DNA of 64,000 nt from Parashewanella spongiae. Its GTDB lineage: Bacteria; Pseudomonadota; Gammaproteobacteria; Enterobacterales; Shewanellaceae. Below the pieces are notes generated by a model, which saw only the letters and a list, made by a program, of their open reading frames with translations, was not told the DNA's origin and did no database searches. The translations under genes were made by a program, and so were the position numbers. The stretch lies in contig NZ_CP037952.1 in assembly GCF_004358345.1 (NCBI RefSeq), positions 868,001-932,000 of the forward strand, read 5' to 3'. Below, piece after piece: positions 19,284 to 54,568 of the stretch; within the stretch, counting starts at the first letter, position 1, and each line of letters starts with the position of its first letter.

Positions 19284-20062
19284 TATTTAAACCCACGGGT
19301 ATGTTTAATTTTGTCGTAAGCGGCTTGGATATCTTGGGCTTTGCGTTTGGCTAGCTCCATCATCTCGTTAGGTAACCCCTTTGCTACTAATTTATCGGGG
19401 TGATGCTCATTCATCAGTTTACGATAGGCGCGTTTGATGTCTTTATCTGATGATGATCCCGTAAGCCCAAGCAGTTGGTAAGCGTCGGCCTCAGAAGTGG
19501 TATTGCTGCCCGAGGCTGACTGCTGGAATTTAAATTCTGCTTTCCAGCGTTCTAACATGCTTTCGAGTTGCTGCTGACTAAAACCAAGCTGCTTGGCTAT
19601 AGAGGATAAAACTTGCAGCTCTTTGGGGTGAAGTTCGCCGTCCGCTAATGCCGTTTGGATTTGAATTTCTAAGAACATCTTGAGCAGTTCAGTGCGTCGG
19701 CCAGCGATTTGTCTAAAGCTTTGTAAGCAAGCTTCTAAATCAAAATCAGCCTGTTTTCCTTCACGAAATGCATTTTGAGCATCACGTTTAGCATCACCTT
19801 GTAAGCGCATTTGCTGCATTAACATTGTAGCAATGCGGATATCAGTTTCAGTCACTTGACCAGATGCTTTAGCGACGTGACCCATCACTGCAAAAGTGCT
19901 GTTAAAGAACTGAGCTTGGCGTTGTGCTGCTGTTTTTAATAAGCCGACCATTCCTTGACGACGATCGTAAGCGTGACCTAACCAGAGTCCAAGTAAGGCA
20001 CCAAAAAATCGACCAAACATAAAGCCGATAATTACACCAAAGACCTTGCCCCAAATCTTCAT
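19283..20062 (-). CDS. djlA: co-chaperone DjlA
   Basis: A 259-residue inner-membrane J-domain protein that stimulates DnaK. It has one glycine-rich N-terminal membrane segment (VIIGFMFGRFFGALLGLWLG), a central TerB-like helical domain and a C-terminal J domain (AYQLLGLTGSSSDKDIKRAY) with the required HPD tripeptide in NEHHPDKL. Domain order and length match DjlA. It lies next to lptD/amgK/murU, as in many gammaproteobacteria, and is coupled to the following dehydrogenase. Confidence 0.95.
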   Translation of the reverse strand: MKIWGKVFGVIIGFMFGRFFGALLGLWLGHAYDRRQGMVGLLKTAAQRQAQFFNSTFAVMGHVAKASGQVTETDIRIATMLMQQMRLQGDAKRDAQNAFREGKQADFDLEACLQSFRQIAGRRTELLKMFLEIQIQTALADGELHPKELQVLSSIAKQLGFSQQQLESMLERWKAEFKFQQSASGSNTTSEADAYQLLGLTGSSSDKDIKRAYRKLMNEHHPDKLVAKGLPNEMMELAKRKAQDIQAAYDKIKHTRGFK

Positions 20063-28121: not shown

Positions 28122-28728
28122 TACCAATTACATTAATTAATCTCTCACTCAGCAAGAGGTAAAGAGCTAAAGAGTTTCAGTGCAAGTCACAAACTCGAAG
28201 TACTATATACCCTAACGGCCGCCATACAAAGCTGGCGTTCAACGCACTTCGTGCTTTTGTCGGGATAATTCAAGTGCTTGTAACACAGTAATGGAACCCT
28301 TTAGCCTTGCCCTTCGGGAGCTTGTATGTGCTCACTTTGGTTTATAAACCTAAATAAATCGGTTGGGAGCGTTCATATACGCAGAAAAAATTACTGATAG
28401 CAAGGCATGAATAGCAGCAAGTAGTGGTTCTACTTGCAAAATTTATAACGCAGCTAGCGGTGGTTTTGCCAAGTATATGAATGTTCAGCACTCACCTGAT
28501 GGGTGAATAAGGGTTGTTTAGTTTTGTATTTAACTTCAATAGATTAAAGCTAAATTGTGCGTTCAACCGATTTATTTAGGATAAAGAATACTTCTCAAAA
28601 TTGTCTTGACGTAGCAATGTAATAACGACAGCTGTGTATGTCGGTAACAACTATGCCTTCATCAATTTCGATTGCACTTTGAGCACATACATAGCTCTGA
28701 GTTGAGCATTTAATTACTGTAATTGGTA
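28122..28728. mobile_element. MITE family E, nested in C and itself interrupted
   Basis: Ends TACCAATTACATTAATTAA and TTAATTACTGTAATTGGTA, flanked by TTA at 28119-28121 and 28729-28731. It is interrupted by a C copy at 28349-28580. The E sequence without that insert is about 370 bp. Confidence 0.88.
28349..28580. mobile_element. MITE family C, inner copy (232 bp)
   Basis: Complete C element inside E, flanked by ATAAA at 28344-28348 and 28581-28585. The uninterrupted E copy at 54096-54456 has a single ATAAA at the corresponding place. It lacks exactly the 31-bp hairpin module found in the copy at 12111. Confidence 0.88.
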
Positions 28729-32278: not shown

Positions 32279-32318
32279 GGCCTGCTATGAATACAGTCAT
32301 TGCAGGCCTTTTCTTTTA
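32279..32318 (+). terminator. terminator of the chemoreceptor gene
   Basis: GGCCTGC (32279-32285) pairs with GCAGGCC (32302-32308), followed by TTTTCTTTT, 20 bp after the stop. Confidence 0.85.
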
Positions 32319-32381
32319 TATCACTGAAAATTCTGTAATATCTATCAATATTCATCTTCATATTCTCCAATGAATAACTAA

Positions 32382-32743
32382 TACCAATTACAGTAATTAA
32401 ATGCTCAACTCAGAGCTATGTATGTGCTCAAAGTGCAATCGAAATTGATGAAGACATAGTTGTTATCGATAAACAAAATTGTCGTTATTACATTGCTACG
32501 TCAAGACAATTTTGAGAAGTATTCTTTATAAACCAAAGTTAGCACAGACAAGCTCCCAAAGGGCAAGGCTAAAGGGTTCCATTACTGCGTTACAAGCACT
32601 TGAATTATCCCGACAAAATCACGAAGTGCGTTGAACGCCAGCTTTGTATGGCGGCCGTTAGGGTATATAGTACTTCGAGCTTGTGCCTTGCACTGAAACC
32701 CTTTAGCTCTTGCTGAGTGAGAGATTAATTACTGTAATTGGTA
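32382..32743. mobile_element. MITE family E, complete copy (362 bp)
   Basis: Ends TACCAATTACAGTAATTAA and TTAATTACTGTAATTGGTA, flanked by TAA at 32379-32381 and 32744-32746. It contains a diverged version of the CGACA...TGTCG hairpin module. It is the best uninterrupted E reference in the window. Confidence 0.88.
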
Positions 32744-32810
32744 TAAAAATTTGTTATTGAAACAAAGAGATGGGATCTATTTTTGAATCTTGAACAAAAG
32801 GAATTAAGCA

Positions 32811-32964
32811 ATGACACTTGGTCAGATAATTAAACAAATTAGAGTTGAAAAAGCATTAAGCCAACCAGAACTCGCTGAGAAAATAGGCATAGAACAGTCG
32901 TATTTATCAAAGCTAGAAAATGACAAATCCCTCCCATCGAATGAAATGCTACAAGCTATTCTGT
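32811..32964 (+). pseudogene. 5' part of an XRE-type HTH regulator gene
   Basis: Starts at ATG 32811 behind AAGGAA and encodes an N-terminal Cro/C1-type helix-turn-helix (LSQPELAEKIGIEQSYLSKL). The frame is cut after ...MLQAIL-L by a 2154-bp element and would stop at TAA 32967-32969, leaving a 52-residue HTH-only peptide. Joining base 32964 to 35124 restores the frame: ...MLQAILLAFGIKLEAML.... The truncated peptide might still bind DNA; that is speculation. Confidence 0.85.
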
Positions 32965-33256
32965 TGTAATGAGGTAATAAAGAATCATACTGGGCAATAA
33001 AGATTCATACTAAACAGCTTGAAATGATGATATTTTCAATCCTTGCTAACACACAATTGCCCCAAAACGTGTTTCAACCTTTGTTAGTTACCACTTGTAA
33101 GTTGCTAATTTAATTAACTAAGATTGATAAATTAGCTCGAATAGAGTTTTGGTCAAAACTACTAATTATTAACTTCTCATACGTAGTCTTTTTTAACTAA
33201 AGTAATCGACTATTTTAAACCGTTCGTGGGTGATTCTATCTGAGTGCAGCTTTGGG

Positions 33257-33286
33257 AGTGCGCAATAAGACACGTTATGGTAAATA
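33257..33286. repeat. inner inverted repeat, left arm
   Basis: AGTGCGCA then, after 9 bases, GTTATGGTAAATA. The reverse complement of both words occurs at 34789-34817, so the two arms bracket the Pycsar gene pair within the larger unit. The surrounding 33011-33457 has no gene; AT-rich promoter-like sequence (TGATAAAAT) lies just before the effector gene. Confidence 0.7.
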
Positions 33287-33457
33287 AGACTTAATTTCCA
33301 AAGCAATAAGTGCCTAGTACACACTTTTGGTACTTGTTCTTCCACCTAGGAGGTATGTTGTTTAACTATGTAAGACCCCTATGTCTATGTATAGATAAAT
33401 AATAAGTGATAAAATTCCGCTTAATTGTTCTGTTAGAATCACTAAGGTTACTCCTAG

Positions 33458-33979
33458 ATGGACGAAAAACTTAAGGATATATTTTCAAATATTAATGATT
33501 GGCTGAAATATGCGGAAGCAAAATCTGCAACTTTAATCGCAGGCAATGGTGCATTAATTTGGGGGTTGGTAAGAGTCTCAAAATCCTTTGAACTAAGCTA
33601 TTCCTTCAATATTTGCCTATTAATTTCAGTATTGCTCTGTGTTGCATCTTTAGTGGTATGTTTACTTTCCATTATTCCATCATTAAATATGCCGTGGGAG
33701 GTTAAACCCAAGGGGAAAGCAGATGATGATAATCTTCTATATTTTGCTGACATATCAAAATATACTCCTGTAGCATTCTTAAATGCTTTGGAAACTAAAC
33801 TTGGTTTAAAACATAGTGAATACACGGGGTATCAAAAAGACATTTCCAGTCAGATCATAGTCAACTCAGTAATCGCTAATGCTAAGTATAAAAACTTTCA
33901 GATTGCAATTTGGTTAACTCTATCCGCTTTGATAACTCCGATTGGAGTTTTAGTCATATTTTTAATAAGGAAATCTTAA
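33458..33979 (+). CDS. Pycsar-type membrane effector (PycTM-like)
   Basis: A 173-residue protein with membrane helices at about 24-40, 50-73 and 150-170 and a soluble loop of about 75 residues between the second and third. The N-terminal pattern AEAKSATLIAGNGALI and the long second helix ending SIIPSL resemble the Pycsar effector-domain (DUF5706-like) proteins. In known Pycsar systems a cyclic pyrimidine nucleotide activates the effector, which depolarises the membrane and aborts phage infection. Its stop overlaps the cyclase ATG (TAATG). The assignment rests on architecture and partner, not on a database match. Confidence 0.75.
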   Translation: MDEKLKDIFSNINDWLKYAEAKSATLIAGNGALIWGLVRVSKSFELSYSFNICLLISVLLCVASLVVCLLSIIPSLNMPWEVKPKGKADDDNLLYFADISKYTPVAFLNALETKLGLKHSEYTGYQKDISSQIIVNSVIANAKYKNFQIAIWLTLSALITPIGVLVIFLIRKS

Positions 33980-34707
33980 TGAAGGATGGGATTGTTTCAA
34001 AGGTCAAGCAAATTATCGATGATAGTTTTGACGTCACAGATATTACAGATGTCCCCAATATAGACGATACTCGGTTAACTTTTGGCAATAAAGGTTTGCG
34101 ATTTGAAGCGACAACCTTGTTTATTGACATGAGGGGATCCACTGCTGTTCTAAATAATCATAATCGGACTACCGTAGCCAAGATACATAAAGCATATTTT
34201 CACACAATAGTTACGATAGCTAAGAACCTTGGTGGAGAGGTGCGAAGTTTTAATGGTGATGGTATGTTGGTGTTCTTTCAAGGGACTTCAAAAGTCACAT
34301 TGAGCAACGCAGTTGAAGCAGCCATGAAAATGAAATGGATGCTCTCTTCCTCTGATTCTGAAGTTAAAAAAAAGATGGAAAAATATTCTACTGTCGATTT
34401 TGGTATTGGAATTGATGATGGAAAAATACTCTGCGCAAAGGTAGGTATTGCTGGTGCCGATAATAGAGATTTAGTTTGGATTGGTAATGCTGTAAATAAG
34501 TCGGTAAAGGTAGGTGATATGTTACACGGTAATATAGGCATATCATCATATGTGTATAGTAATTTACTCGATCGAGTGAAATATTATACAGAAAAGGATA
34601 TATGGGGCCATGAAGTTCAGAAAGATATGTGGCAGTCCGCATACTTCGAATACAACGGGAAGCAGGAGTTGTATTATTTCACTACTTATCATTGGGTTGT
34701 GTCGTGA
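33979..34707 (+). CDS. class III nucleotidyl cyclase, Pycsar PycC-like
   Basis: A 242-residue stand-alone class III cyclase domain. Metal-binding aspartates are D50 in LFIDMRGS and D94 in FNGDGMLVFF; the substrate/transition-state strand is LVWIGNAVNKSVKVG with N173 and, three residues on, K177 where adenylyl cyclases usually have Arg. Soluble, with no sensor or membrane domain. Being a minimal cyclase coupled to a small membrane protein is the arrangement of Pycsar (cCMP or cUMP signalling). The frame extends upstream to 33910, but ATG 33979 follows AAGG and is coupled to the effector stop. Nucleotide specificity cannot be read here. Confidence 0.8.
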   Translation: MKDGIVSKVKQIIDDSFDVTDITDVPNIDDTRLTFGNKGLRFEATTLFIDMRGSTAVLNNHNRTTVAKIHKAYFHTIVTIAKNLGGEVRSFNGDGMLVFFQGTSKVTLSNAVEAAMKMKWMLSSSDSEVKKKMEKYSTVDFGIGIDDGKILCAKVGIAGADNRDLVWIGNAVNKSVKVGDMLHGNIGISSYVYSNLLDRVKYYTEKDIWGHEVQKDMWQSAYFEYNGKQELYYFTTYHWVVS

Positions 34708-34788
34708 TTCTAACAAGTTGTTTCACACGGATAATTTACTCGCTCCGCTCATAAATTACCGATGAGCAAAGCGTTTTAATTCAAAACC

Positions 34789-34817
34789 TATTTACCATAA
34801 CCGCCGTTGTGCGCACT
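34789..34817. repeat. inner inverted repeat, right arm
   Basis: TATTTACCATAAC and TGCGCACT, reverse complements of the left arm at 33257-33286. Between the cyclase stop and this arm is an imperfect hairpin (TAATTTA...TAAATTA around 34733-34760). Confidence 0.7.
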
Positions 34818-34825
34818 TCTGTTGC

Positions 34826-34852
34826 AAGCCCTAAGTTGTTTTTTTAGGGCTT
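34826..34852 (+). terminator. hairpin downstream of the cyclase gene
   Basis: AAGCCCTAA pairs with TTAGGGCTT, with T-rich loop sequence. It follows the right inner arm and may end Pycsar transcription. The rest of the segment to 35118 holds a second hairpin (AAACTTAAGC/GCTCAAGTTT) and no gene. Confidence 0.5.
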
Positions 34853-35123
34853 ATCGTGATTTTGAGCAATTTGATGTTCATAATCTGACTTTAGAGGCAT
34901 TTTTTGCTAATGCTATCGGATGATTATTAATTGAAGCCGAAACACGGAAATGTCCAATAACGTGTTTCGTTCGGTATGATTCTTTATTACTTCATTTTTC
35001 TAGTCAAAATGCCTTTAAGAGCAAATCAGTATGAAACTTAAGCTTTTATAGCTCAAGTTTCAACGTATTAATCAGCTCTACAGAGTAATCGAGGATGAAT
35101 CTTTATTGCCCGACTACATCTGT

Positions 35124-35691
35124 TGGCATTTGGTATCAAGCTTGAAGCCATGCTTTCACTTATAGATTCAAACAGCGAGAAGCAACGTCTCAAACAGATA
35201 CCCATTGTAAATGACTGCTATCAAAACCAAGCTAAGTATAATTTCGAAAAGCAACGGCGTTATTTGTACCTGAGTAGTCTACTGATTATTTTGGGTATCT
35301 GTGTATTTTATGCCGGATTCAGCAAAGAGTTATTCAAAGAAGTTAAATATGAATATAAATCGAGGGGAGTAGTTTTAGAAGGCGAACCAGTTGATATATA
35401 TTGGGATTGGCGCAGTTTTGTCAAAAGAAGCCCGCAGAATATACAAGAACAAAAAAACTAGAAATAGGCAAAAGAAAATCACCAAATACATTGTTGCTAA
35501 CGAGCTATAAAGGGGAGTCTTTTGTTACTGAAACTGAAGGGGGAAGAAGGCTGTATTATTTAAATAATGATGACGATGGTGGTGTAAAGCAGATACCTGA
35601 TATTAGAAATTTGTACATAAAAGTTATTGGCTTATTCTTGCTCTGCTCAGGTGTATTTGGCTTCGTGCTTGAGCAAAAACTATTTAAGTAA
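35124..35691 (+). pseudogene. 3' part of the HTH membrane-regulator gene, with a frameshift
   Basis: Continues the gene begun at 32811. It encodes a linker (AFGIKLEAMLSLIDSNSEK), a membrane helix (YLSSLLIILGICVFYAG) and, after a TAG at 35459-35461, a second segment in the -1 frame ending with another membrane helix (VIGLFLLCSGVFGFVLEQ). The shift sits at A_AAA_AAC (35452-35458) immediately before the stop, a classical -1 slippery heptamer. It may be programmed frameshifting, a homopolymer indel, or decay after disruption. Read through, the intact product would be about 240 residues: HTH plus two membrane helices. A start at ATG 35150 could still give a headless protein. Confidence 0.7.
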
Positions 35692-35704
35692 CCAGAAATA
35701 TAAA

Positions 35705-35728
35705 GAAGCCACTAAAAATAGTGGCTTC
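35705..35728 (-). terminator. terminator of the DUF3718-like gene
   Basis: GAAGCCACTA and TAGTGGCTTC form a perfect 10-bp stem, followed on the minus strand by a T-rich tail. It is 15 bp beyond the stop of the minus-strand gene. Confidence 0.75.
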
Positions 35729-35743
35729 AAGTACATGAGCATT

Positions 35744-36112
35744 TTATAGCTTGAGTTTAGACTTTAGTGCCGCAGTAATTGGGCTGTCGGCATGTCCATT
35801 TGCATTCGCCCAGTCCCATACTTTGCTTTGAGTCAACGCTTTACTTGAAACACGCTTTACGATGTATTCACCAACTTCATCAGCACTGCTTGAGTAAGCG
35901 GTTTGCAATAAGTTGTTGCTATTACATTTTAGATCGGCATAGATATTTCTTAAGGTAATGCGACCTTCTTTTAGTTTTTTACGTAAGCGACTTTTATCAT
36001 TATCTTTCACATAGCTACAAACACTGATTAAAAGTTGTTCGTTAGCATGAGAGGTTGGAACGATGAACGATGTGGCAATCAGAACCACTCCAGCGAGGAT
36101 AATACTACGCAT
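35744..36112 (-). CDS. small exported DUF3718-like protein
   Basis: 122 residues from ATG 36112, chosen because GGAG lies 6 bp upstream; the frame opens four codons earlier. A signal peptide ends in TSHA, giving a mature protein starting NEQLL. It has two cysteines (SVCSYVKDN and DLKCNSNN) and the spacing RLRKKL...ITLRNIYADLKCN...LLQTA reminiscent of DUF3718 proteins from Shewanella-type bacteria. Periplasmic, of unknown function. Confidence 0.75.
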   Translation of the reverse strand: MRSIILAGVVLIATSFIVPTSHANEQLLISVCSYVKDNDKSRLRKKLKEGRITLRNIYADLKCNSNNLLQTAYSSSADEVGEYIVKRVSSKALTQSKVWDWANANGHADSPITAALKSKLKL

Positions 36113-36692: not shown

Positions 36693-36986
36693 GGGGCTGT
36701 TTATCTTTCGTGATTATTTTTTGCAGCGATAAATTGGTCGTTTTATACAAGACAGAGCTTGTGCGGTTTGGTATTATCGACATACAAAACTGTCGTTACT
36801 TCGTTTCCAAATAAGCAAGCGATAACGCAGTAGAAATGACCAATTTACGCTGTCTTAGATGCTTTTGAGCGTTCACTGTTCTGTGTTGTAACCCGTTTAC
36901 TTAGATGACTAAGCTTCACTGCTTACGCCTTGAACAGATAAACACTCAAATAGCACAAAATTTAATCCTGAAAGATAAACAGCCCC
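36693..36986. mobile_element. MITE family A, copy 1 (294 bp)
   Basis: Terminal inverted repeats GGGGCTGTTTATCTTTC and GAAAGATAAACAGCCCC, flanked by TA dinucleotides (36691-36692, 36987-36988). A TA target duplication is the mark of IS630/Tc1-mariner-type transposition. It carries the 31-bp hairpin module. No coding sequence. Confidence 0.88.
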
Positions 36987-41533: not shown

Positions 41534-42033
41534 GGGGCTGTTTATCTTTCAGGATTAAATTTTGTGCTATTTTAGCGTTTATCTGTTCAACCTAGAAACA
41601 TCAGTTGACTGCGTTCTCAAGCGTAGAAAAAATGGCTGATATTAAGACGTAGCTTGCAGCAAGTAGTTATTCTACTTGCAAAAGTTACAACGTAGATAGC
41701 AGCCATTTTAGCAAGCTTGTGAGCGTAGAGCATTTCACTCATTGGGTGAAAAACATGATAATAAAATCATCCTATTGTTCAAACAGTTACTCATATACTC
41801 AGCGTTCAACTGATGTTTTTAGGTTCAAGGCGTAAGCAGTGAAGCTTAGTCATTTAAGTAAACGGGTTACAACACAGAACAGTGAACGCTCAAAAGCATC
41901 TAAGACAGCGTAAATTGGTCATTTCTACTGCGTTATCGCTTGCTTATTTGGAATACCAAACCGCACAAGCTCTGTCTTGTATAAAACGACCAATTTATCG
42001 CTGCAAAAATAATCACGAAAGATAAACAGCCCC
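41534..42033. mobile_element. MITE family A, copy 2, interrupted by a B element
   Basis: Same terminal repeats as copy 1 in the opposite orientation, with TA at 41532-41533 and 42034-42035. A 233-bp family B element sits inside. Without it and its duplication the element is 262 bp, 32 bp shorter than copy 1, mainly because the 31-bp hairpin module is absent. Confidence 0.9.
41591..41823. mobile_element. MITE family B nested in MITE A (233 bp)
   Basis: Ends CCTAGAAACATCAGTTG and CAACTGATGTTTTTAGG. Flanked by TTCAA at 41586-41590 and 41824-41828; the uninterrupted A copies at 36.7 and 61.4 kb have one TTCAA at this spot, so the 5-bp target duplication is proven by comparison. Confidence 0.93.
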
Positions 42034-44792: not shown

Positions 44793-45288
44793 TTGTAAAA
44801 TTTAAAACGCAGCTAGCGGTGATTTTGGCAAGTATATGAATGTTCAGCACTCACCTGATGAGTGAATTCGGTTTTTTTAATTTTGTATTTAACTTCAATA
44901 AATTAAAGTTATACCAATTACAGTAATTAAATTCCCAGCTCAGAGCTATGTATGTGTTCACAGTACAAGTGAAATTGATGAAGACATAGTATTACTGACA
45001 TACAAAACTGTCGTTATTACATTGCTACGTTGAGACAGTTTTGCGTAGTAATTTGGACACATACAAGCTCCCGAAGGGCAAGGCTAAAGGATTCCATTAC
45101 TAGGTTACAAGTTTTTGAATTATCCCGACAAAAGCACCAAGTGCGTTGAACGCCAGTTTTGTATGGCGGCCGGAGGGAATATAGTACTTCAAGCTTGCGC
45201 CTTGTACTGAAATCCTTTAGCTCTTGCTGAGTGAGAAGTTAATTACTGTAATTGGTATTAAATTGTGCATTCAACCAGTTTATTTAGG
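44793..45288. repeat. MITE family C remnant interrupted by an E element
   Basis: Carries the right two-thirds of C, ending CAACCAGTTTATTTAGG at 45288; the left end is missing. An E element (44912-45257) is inserted at TTA. The remnant starts 17 bp after the preceding gene's stop. Confidence 0.75.
44912..45257. mobile_element. MITE family E inside C (346 bp)
   Basis: Ends TACCAATTACAGTAATTAA and TTAATTACTGTAATTGGTA with TTA at 44909-44911 and 45258-45260. The uninterrupted C copy at 12111-12373 reads through this point with one TTA. Confidence 0.88.
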
Positions 45289-53814: not shown

Positions 53815-54568
53815 TTAATTGCCAGAGCTTGGAGTAACACCGTCTTTTGCATGTTTGATTAAATCCTCAATGATTTGTAATAACTCTTTGGCTGAGTCTC
53901 GAACATCGCTGTAAGCATGAAGGAATGGCTCCTTGTCACTTGCTGGAACAACTTTACTAAACTTTTTAAGCGTGCGTAACTCCTCTCTCAGTTGCTTTGT
54001 TACTCTCACTTCCGCCTCTTCATTTTTGTTTATAAAGAAATTTATTAAACGTTGAGATGTGTCTTGAGGTGCACCTTTAGATGAAAAATCATTTATACCA
54101 ATTACAGTAATTAATTTCTCACTCAGCAAGAGCTAAAGGGTTTCAGTGCAAGGCACAAGCTCGAAGTACTATATTCCCTACGGCCGCCATACAAAGCTGG
54201 CGTTCAACGCACTTAGTGCTTTTGTCGGGATAATTCAAGAGCTTGTAACGCAGTAATGGAACCCTTTAGCCTTGCCCTTCGGTAGCTTGTATGTGCTCAC
54301 TTTAGTTTATAAAGAATACTTCTCAAAATTGTCTTGACTTAGCAATGTAATAACGACAGCTTTGTATGTTGGTAACAACTATGTCTTCATCAATTTCGAT
54401 TGCACGTTGAGCACATACATAGCTCTGAGTTGAGCATTTAATTACTGTAATTGGTATTACTCTAGAAGATGCTATTTGCAAAACCTCTAATTCAGTTGGG
54501 GCTTTCTTAGGTACTGTGTAACTAGCAATATCAGAAGCATGCCTTGACTTAGGCACCCGTGAAGGCAA
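53815..54568 (-). pseudogene. small gene split by an E element
   Basis: Two minus-strand coding pieces (54568-54460 and 54095-53815) are separated by a 361-bp E element. Removing it with one TTA copy gives 390 bp, 129 codons, and restores the frame across ...LQIASSRVNDFSSKG.... The product is helical and charged (RVTKQLREELRTLKKF, ELLQIIEDLIKHAK). Start seems to be TTG 54568 immediately after the stop of the upstream gene; GTG starts are also possible. Unknown function. It lies beside, and points away from, the Wadjet-like operon. Confidence 0.65.
54096..54456. mobile_element. MITE family E interrupting a gene (361 bp)
   Basis: Ends TACCAATTACAGTAATTAA and TTAATTACTGTAATTGGTA (one-base variants), flanked by TTA at 54093-54095 and 54457-54459. 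Contains the hairpin module. Confidence 0.92.

Follow-up and report, generated by a model that had tools for sequence, protein, structure and literature searches.

The 64,000-nucleotide stretch of the Parashewanella spongiae genome analysed here (contig NZ_CP037952.1, hereafter the window) carries, at positions 32965-35118, a unit of 2154 bp that is most likely a non-autonomous mini-transposon of the Tn7 family with nested cargo, namely a module that holds a Pycsar phage-defence gene pair in the form of an integron cassette. An earlier note, made from the letters of the window alone, had described the unit as a Tn7/Tn5053/Mu-type mini-transposon with phage defence as its only cargo. The two inner layers, i.e. 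the Pycsar pair as an integron-type cassette and the further, putatively exchangeable module around it, are absent from that note.

Ends of the unit and the interrupted gene

Recomputation reproduced the position of the unit to the base, as well as the other features reported earlier: inverted termini that start with TGTA (TGTAATGAGGTAATAAAGAATCATAC and TGTAGTCGGGCAATAAAGATTCATCC, identical at 20 of 26 positions), the TCTGT duplication, internal copies of the end sequence (a second left site at 32996-33010 and a second right site at 34988-34974), and the lack of a transposase. Within the whole window, 73 TGT...ACA pairs placed 1-15 kb apart match at 18 or more of 26 positions, and a 5-bp direct duplication accompanies only one of them, the unit 32965-35118. 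Each end contains two 15-bp motifs, separated by 20 bp at the left and by 119 bp at the right, and the left outer stretch is 96% complementary to the right inner stretch over 23 nt. The features of the ends and of the interrupted gene are as follows.

32811-32964, plus strand: 5′ half of a gene encoding an XRE-type helix-turn-helix regulator (Pfam HTH_3, 9.8e-13), ending with the first TCTGT; the joined flanks are collinear with homologues
32960-32964, no strand: left copy of the target-site duplication TCTGT
32965-33011, plus strand: left Tn7-like end of the overlapping type, with two TnsB-like sites (motifs 32976-32990 and 32996-33010, 20 bp apart); the same layout stands beside tnsA in Aliagarivorans marinus
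34974-35118, minus strand: right Tn7-like end of the spaced type (motifs 34988-34974 and 35107-35093), whose outermost 38 bp recur in the genome
35119-35123, no strand: right copy of TCTGT, a perfect match to the left copy
35119-35461, plus strand: 3′ half of the XRE-type gene; the sequence beyond it is in another frame (open reading frame, ORF, 35401-35691)

The only ORFs of at least 90 amino acids (aa) within the unit encode PycTM and PycC, and genome-wide TnsA and TnsB searches gave no match there. An Rfam scan of positions 32300-35800 revealed no family at the gathering score, no tRNA was found in the window, and a promoter scan returned 7 sites versus 9.7 expected in shuffled sequences.

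When the flanks are joined with one TCTGT kept, they form a single frame of 163 codons. A search with the 3′ half matched seven of 97 genomes, that of P. spongiae among them, and provided six homologue loci in other species; their ORFs are 221-267 aa long in five cases, the sixth being a partial one of 114 aa. These six loci were compared with the joined flanks by tblastn. All four alignments displayed run through the junction with no gap, at 47-58% identity; in that with locus L167, the match of the initial 23 residues lies in a different frame. The XRE gene has decayed after the insertion, as it stops after 163 codons and is followed by the ORF in another frame.

Interspersed repeats arranged as inverted pairs, identical at 20-26 of 26 bases, occur at many points of the window (32475-32615 and 28258-28635), and one of them stands just upstream of the XRE gene. 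Further inverted repeat pairs join 36851-36887 with 41871-41907 and 45009-45160 with 54193-54358.

Related elements in the same genome and in other genera

The earlier note had named the absence of any other locus with these ends as an argument against a transposon; the same ends were found both in the P. spongiae genome and in other genera. A pattern search combined with BLAST identified ten elements or part-elements in the own genome, E1-E10, of which E1 is the unit 32965-35118. Perfect 5-bp duplications, each of a different sequence, flank five of the seven elements with sites at both ends; in this count E5 and E6 are misses, and E7, E9 and E10, of which one end was mapped, are left out.

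E1: duplication TCTGT; cargo, the Pycsar pair
E2: duplication ATTAT; cargo, a pentatricopeptide-repeat (PPR) protein, a transposase (Pfam DDE_Tnp_1) that we take to belong to the ISAs1 family of insertion sequences (IS), and proteins of no assigned kind
E3: duplication TCAAG; cargo, ankyrin and IS remnants
E4: duplication GAGGT; cargo, a DUF1877 protein and a 154-aa protein
E8: duplication ATTAC; cargo, a PPR-like protein (DNA similarity to that of E2) and one further protein

The outermost 38 bp of the right end recur, with up to three mismatches, at seven further places in the own genome. None of the copies E1-E10 encodes TnsA or TnsB. Ten proteins, nine from E2, E3, E4 and E8 and one from locus L098, were analysed with PADLOC, and one of them matched, the E3 ankyrin protein (candidate model PDC-M72A, 3.7e-12). 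Since the cargo is mixed, the family looks like a general carrier that is not dedicated to defence: phage defence as the only cargo is true for the proteins of E1, but not for the family, in which the cargo is of many kinds.

The cargo of E5 (loci L038 and L033; positions 5402298-5412489 of the own genome, G000) includes a 503-aa catalase-like protein, recognised by eye. A gene family encoding very long proteins with repeats of approximately 84 aa is present in several copies in or beside the mini-transposons and modules (L031, L033, L036, L037, L038, L108, L146-L152 and L155), and the member tested, the 1186-aa protein of E2, matches PPR families. In the open-licence literature, searches for Parashewanella or bacterial PPR genes returned plant papers.

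When up to two mismatches were allowed, the paired left-end pattern, irrespective of a transposase beside it, was found in 14 of 295 genomes of the order (the own genome included), representing 11 of 100 genera. In a named collection, 36 stretches with exact matches came from Psychrobacter, Idiomarina, Aliidiomarina, Rheinheimera, Vibrio, Pseudoalteromonas, Acinetobacter and others. Seven end pairings were obtained from other genera, and four of them, from three genera, are units with perfect 5-bp duplications; their ORFs were read by eye, except for the long ORF of the 1480-bp unit, which was assigned with Pfam.

Genome G006: unit of 2172 bp, duplication CCGCC
Genome G230: unit of 3425 bp, duplication ATAAG
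Genome G230 (L104:36-1515): unit of 1480 bp, duplication TGAGT; the long ORF belongs to the beta-lactamase family
Genome G302: unit of 5248 bp, duplication CCTAT; two ORFs resemble, by eye, tyrosine recombinases

The other three pairings (two in L092 and one in L105) have neither a TGT right end nor a duplication and were not counted as elements. Another species of the same genus (G002) contains a 1238-bp unit with the duplication TTTAC and a 179-aa ORF. In G230 (L103:46-2410), a gene resembling, by eye, an integron integrase lies directly inside a Tn7-type end and is followed by genes on the opposite strand.

Tn7-type character of the ends and search for a transposase

The end repeats, AATAAAGNNTCATAC, are also present beside tnsABC in Aliagarivorans marinus (locus L094, genome G176). 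At this locus motifs in the overlapping layout abut TnsA, located at 19915, 19895 and 19875 (the last with one mismatch) and tnsA running from 19822, and Pfam matches include the N- and C-terminal domains of TnsA, Mu-transpos_C and Tn7_TnsC_Int. An IncN plasmid of Citrobacter has a TGT end and similar 20-bp repeats before tnsA; the TnsA encoded there and that of L094 share 58.8% identity. Tn7 itself has TGT ends with arrays of transposase sites of approximately 20 bp, and its insertion is accompanied by a 5-bp duplication. Judged by their sequence, the ends of the unit are of the Tn7 type. A Tn7-type TnsA/TnsB/TnsC set is flanked by the same repeats, which makes this affiliation likelier than a Tn5053/Tn402- or Mu-type origin, which was rejected; of the earlier classification, the non-autonomous Tn7-type part therefore stands, and the Tn5053 and Mu options have become less likely.

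TGT termini with multiple asymmetric TnsB-type sites and a 5-bp target duplication, both traits of the Tn7 family, are present in the unit. TnsABC and a target selector are not encoded within it, according to the ORF list, Pfam and the TnsA/TnsB searches, and for this reason we assign it only as a non-autonomous Tn7-family derivative. No fixed attachment site was found, as the unit interrupts the XRE gene and the other copies lie at unrelated sites; the fixed site of Tn7 is glmS, which is not a trait of the whole family.

The earlier note had suggested looking for the ends next to a transposase. No TnsA or TnsB was seen in the own-genome copies E1-E10, and the end repeats were found beside tnsABC in A. 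marinus. TnsA-type matches in the own genome are confined to two places, neither within E1-E10. The first is a type I-F3 CRISPR-associated transposon (CAST; G000:C1:1986562-1995157, L054:562-9157), which encodes a TnsA-TnsB fusion of 822 aa, TnsC, TniQ, a Csy2-domain protein, Csy3 and Csy4 and adjoins an ffs-like sequence (ffs recognised by eye). The second (L055:5949-8709; G000 3853948-3856708) comprises remnants of Tn7-type TnsB and TnsA with an ISAs1-type gene between them. The L094 TnsB, used as a query, matched nothing in the own genome beyond these two loci (E values of 7e-10 and 1.9e-7), but relatives in genomes G002 and G005 are 47% identical. At the end next to the TnsA of G002, AATAAAG repeats are present, but their sequence is a different one.

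The resident CAST could be considered as the mobiliser of the mini-elements, since no other intact set of Tn7-type transposase genes was found in the own genome. This is highly improbable and was rejected: the stretch between ffs and the CAST tnsAB contains, by eye, repeats of another sequence, of the TTTTCAGGAAAA type, and in the 39 kb around the CAST the AATAAAG-TCAT motif is represented only by scattered sites with two mismatches. No close partner transposase was thus found in the own genome, and we therefore infer that the elements may be mobilised in trans by a visiting element.

It is also quite unlikely that the unit is a decayed Tn7-like element, i.e. a full transposon that lost tnsABCD here by internal deletion and never moved in its present form. 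Such an origin would fit the broken TnsA/TnsB remnants in the genome and the occurrence, in other genera, of tnsABC next to ends of this kind, but four other own-genome copies combine similar arms with different cargo and with perfect 5-bp duplications of their own, and short elements of the same layout occur in other species, which argues that small forms have moved repeatedly.

Several observations count against a mobile Tn7-type unit. In the own genome a transposase of the right type was not found, the TnsA/TnsB matches being the I-F3 CAST TnsAB and the broken remnant only. The empty site is deduced from homologues in other species, none of them from a strain of the same species. Two of the seven elements with sites at both ends lack a matching duplication: E5 has GAGGC and AGAGG at its borders and no outer right site, while E6 has neither TGT at its left side nor a duplication. 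The reversed control pattern gave one match in each of three of the 295 genomes, the own genome included.

Pycsar genes and the integron-type cassette

Both components expected of a Pycsar system are present, a PycC cyclase and, adjacent to it, a PycTM-type effector.

33458-33979, plus strand: pycTM, Pycsar membrane effector, 173 aa (Pfam PycTM, 3.8e-13, passing the cut-off; PADLOC 2TM effector, 5.3e-42, and PycTM, 2.8e-30)
33979-34707, plus strand: pycC, pyrimidine cyclase, 242 aa, overlapping the pycTM stop codon (PADLOC PycC, 4.7e-66; PDB cyclase 7r65, 2e-25)

In NCBIfam, no model was matched by PycC or PycTM at 0.001. Systems of this family sense phage, PycC makes a cyclic pyrimidine nucleotide and PycTM damages the membrane, and the pair found here would act in the same way. 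PycC has no match at an E value of 1e-20 in the other 393 of the 394 genomes of the order that were searched, which suggests that it was probably acquired from outside. A search with PycC gave one record among phages; among plasmids it gave 41 records, all of these with less than 60% identity.

The pair lies within a segment that is built like an integron gene cassette.

33433-34773, plus strand: Pycsar integron-type gene cassette, 1341 bp, with a 3′ attC, 11-bp box pairing, a 25-nt leader before the ATG and the stop codon inside attC
33432-33442, plus strand: 5′ edge of the cassette, GTTAGAATCAC, complementary to 34704-34714; the G/TT cut lies between 33432 and 33433
34704-34773, plus strand: attC site with R'' GTGATTCTAAC, sharing 80-84% identity with stretches of G050, G012, G027 and a Saccharobesus plasmid

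The 11 bp of the edge are the exact complement of the outer attC box at 34704-34714. Each of the two sequences occurs once on the plus strand of the window, and the count expected in 500 bp is 1.2e-4. A BLAST search of the unit against 60 relatives gave matches within 34709-34776 in G050, G012 and G027, and a distant DNA search of plasmids with positions 32400-35700 returned only the attC stretch of the one Saccharobesus plasmid. All four attC homologues lie between ORFs. Those of G050 and G012 belong to arrays whose genes are mostly on one strand and which begin with an integron-integrase-like gene; in G012 this gene is a 234-aa ORF, apparently cut short. In the G050 array the TAAC...GTTA form was seen by eye in 13 of the 16 spacers printed, the attC homologue included, and the other three show one half only in the printed piece. 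Two integron integrases are encoded in the own genome, and their TIGR02249 scores of 401.5 and 454.8 bits exceed the cut-off of 265.

The structural evidence is less favourable to a cassette. When the attC stretch is folded by itself as single-stranded DNA, the lowest-energy structure is not the full canonical stem, in contrast to one long stem in two homologues. The cassette is solitary and placed within the module, not in an attI-led array, and the genome-wide search gave no tyrosine recombinase match in the window. Its right flank, G/TTTTAAT, is not a canonical site.

The solitary position and the fold, together with an attC-like stretch that is 80-84% identical, and not near-identical, to its homologues, would also be expected if the transposon had captured the Pycsar pair as ordinary chromosomal cargo and the resemblance to attC were due to chance. 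We consider this unlikely in view of the intergenic location of all four homologous stretches, two of them in integrase-led arrays, the box pairing at the expected place and at so low an expected count, and the positions of the leader and the stop codon, which fit a cassette. By anatomy, the Pycsar pair is best described as a putative integron gene cassette, well supported by sequence and less so by structure.

The inner module

The cassette is enclosed by a further layer, a module whose edges were placed by comparison with other module copies.

33057-34956, plus strand: inner, putatively exchangeable module of approximately 1.9 kb, with edges TTGCCCC (33057-33063) and TGTCCA (34951-34956)
34785-34956, minus strand: conserved right unit of the module with the hairpin AGCCCTAA..TTAGGGCTT; nine further own-genome copies were aligned, and relatives occur in G001 and G002
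34938-34969, no strand: junction CGAAACACG-N14-CGTGTTTCG between the module and the right arm of the transposon

Two conserved non-coding units, inverted with respect to each other, lie between the transposon arms and the cassette, and both end inward in GTTATGGTAAATA. In the own-genome stretches analysed, one or both of them recur at 13 further places, or at 14 if a weaker match to the left unit in E3 is counted; copies are also present in two further species of the genus (G001 and G002). The modules of E4 and E9a are the same, 99.885% identical over 1738 bp, and their flanks differ on both sides; no similarity extends beyond either edge, and no duplication was seen at the edges of these copies. 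Among the edges listed, TGCCC is present at 11 of 11 on the left and TGTCC at 9 of 12 on the right, often within an imperfect palindrome. The right transposon arms are alike up to TGGACA in six of the eight printed and then diverge. The cargo of other modules includes a protein kinase, a TonB_C protein, a papain-like protease and a DUF1877 protein. The whole module was also considered as an integron cassette and rejected, as its two conserved units are inverted and not in array orientation.

From these comparisons, the movement of the module looks like site-specific exchange. The edges were placed partly by eye, which would suit another reading, in which the edges are scars of homologous recombination or of insertion sequences and not recombinase sites. 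No recombinase was found either: none was seen encoded in the module copies, and no module unit lies near 33 of the 36 tyrosine-recombinase matches of the own genome, with approximately 1.5 kb or more searched around each. Scars nevertheless appear somewhat unlikely, given the near-identity of the E4 and E9a modules up to both edges and the recurrence of TGCCC and TGTCC there.

Tentatively, and with more hesitation than for the nested structure itself, we propose a two-stage cargo system: transposase-less Tn7-type shuttles would carry a recombination dock just inside their ends, at which modules could be loaded and swapped by a site-specific recombinase before being spread to new sites by a visiting Tn7-type transposase. 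Just as tentatively, its modules may include one with the Pycsar integron cassette and one beside a Septu pair.

A Septu-like pair was identified at L150:901-2906 (G000 4268900-4270905). It consists of PtuA, in two overlapping frames, and PtuB, and stands beside a left unit; the corresponding right unit was not found.

Proposed mechanism and significance

According to the model that best fits the nested structure, the AATAAAGNNTCATAC sites of the two asymmetric ends would be recognised by a TnsABC-type transposase acting in trans, which would paste the unit with a 5-bp staggered cut, the target here being the XRE gene. Between the outer arms would lie a module for which exchange takes place at TG(T/C)CC-centred sites, probably through a site-specific recombinase, and an integron integrase may have deposited the Pycsar pair in this module as a gene cassette at a secondary G/TT site.

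Surveys that find Tn7-like elements via their transposase genes would miss such units. If short transposase-less units with these ends are common, a hidden share of the traffic of defence, resistance and accessory genes rides on them. The nesting also offers a concrete route by which an integron cassette, in particular one with Pycsar genes, could leave the integron and become mobile alone, and, with the exchange sites as a guide, a recombinase can be sought directly.

Comparison with known systems

The pair resembles known Pycsar systems in combining a cyclase with a membrane effector encoded by overlapping genes, and differs in that its nearest PDB relative, 7r65, is only moderately similar. 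With integron gene cassettes and their secondary insertions it shares ORFs with a short leader and a 3′ attC, G/TT edges and insertion outside an attI site; it differs from them in sitting inside a transposon module. Secondary (attG) insertions of integron gene cassettes were reportedly described by Loot et al. in 2024, and Darracq et al. are said to have presented sedentary chromosomal integrons as defence biobanks in 2025. The likeness to the latter is a defence gene in the form of an integron cassette, and the difference is that the Pycsar cassette lies outside an integron, on a mini-transposon.

In the open-licence literature searched, no paper on Pycsar aboard a non-autonomous Tn7-like element was found, and the words "Pycsar", "nonautonomous" and "non-autonomous" are absent from the main text of the study of Tn7-like transposons by Benler et al. 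2021 (PMC8649781); this fits the view of the earlier note that such a route of Pycsar spread is undescribed. As far as the text of that study goes, the cargo of Tn7-like transposons includes defence systems and integrons, an intact or partial integron is present in 10% of these transposons, and CBASS is widely mobilised. The unit shares this kind of cargo with them, whereas in contrast to Tn7 and Tn7-like transposons it is devoid of tnsABCD, measures 2.15 kb and lies within an ordinary gene.

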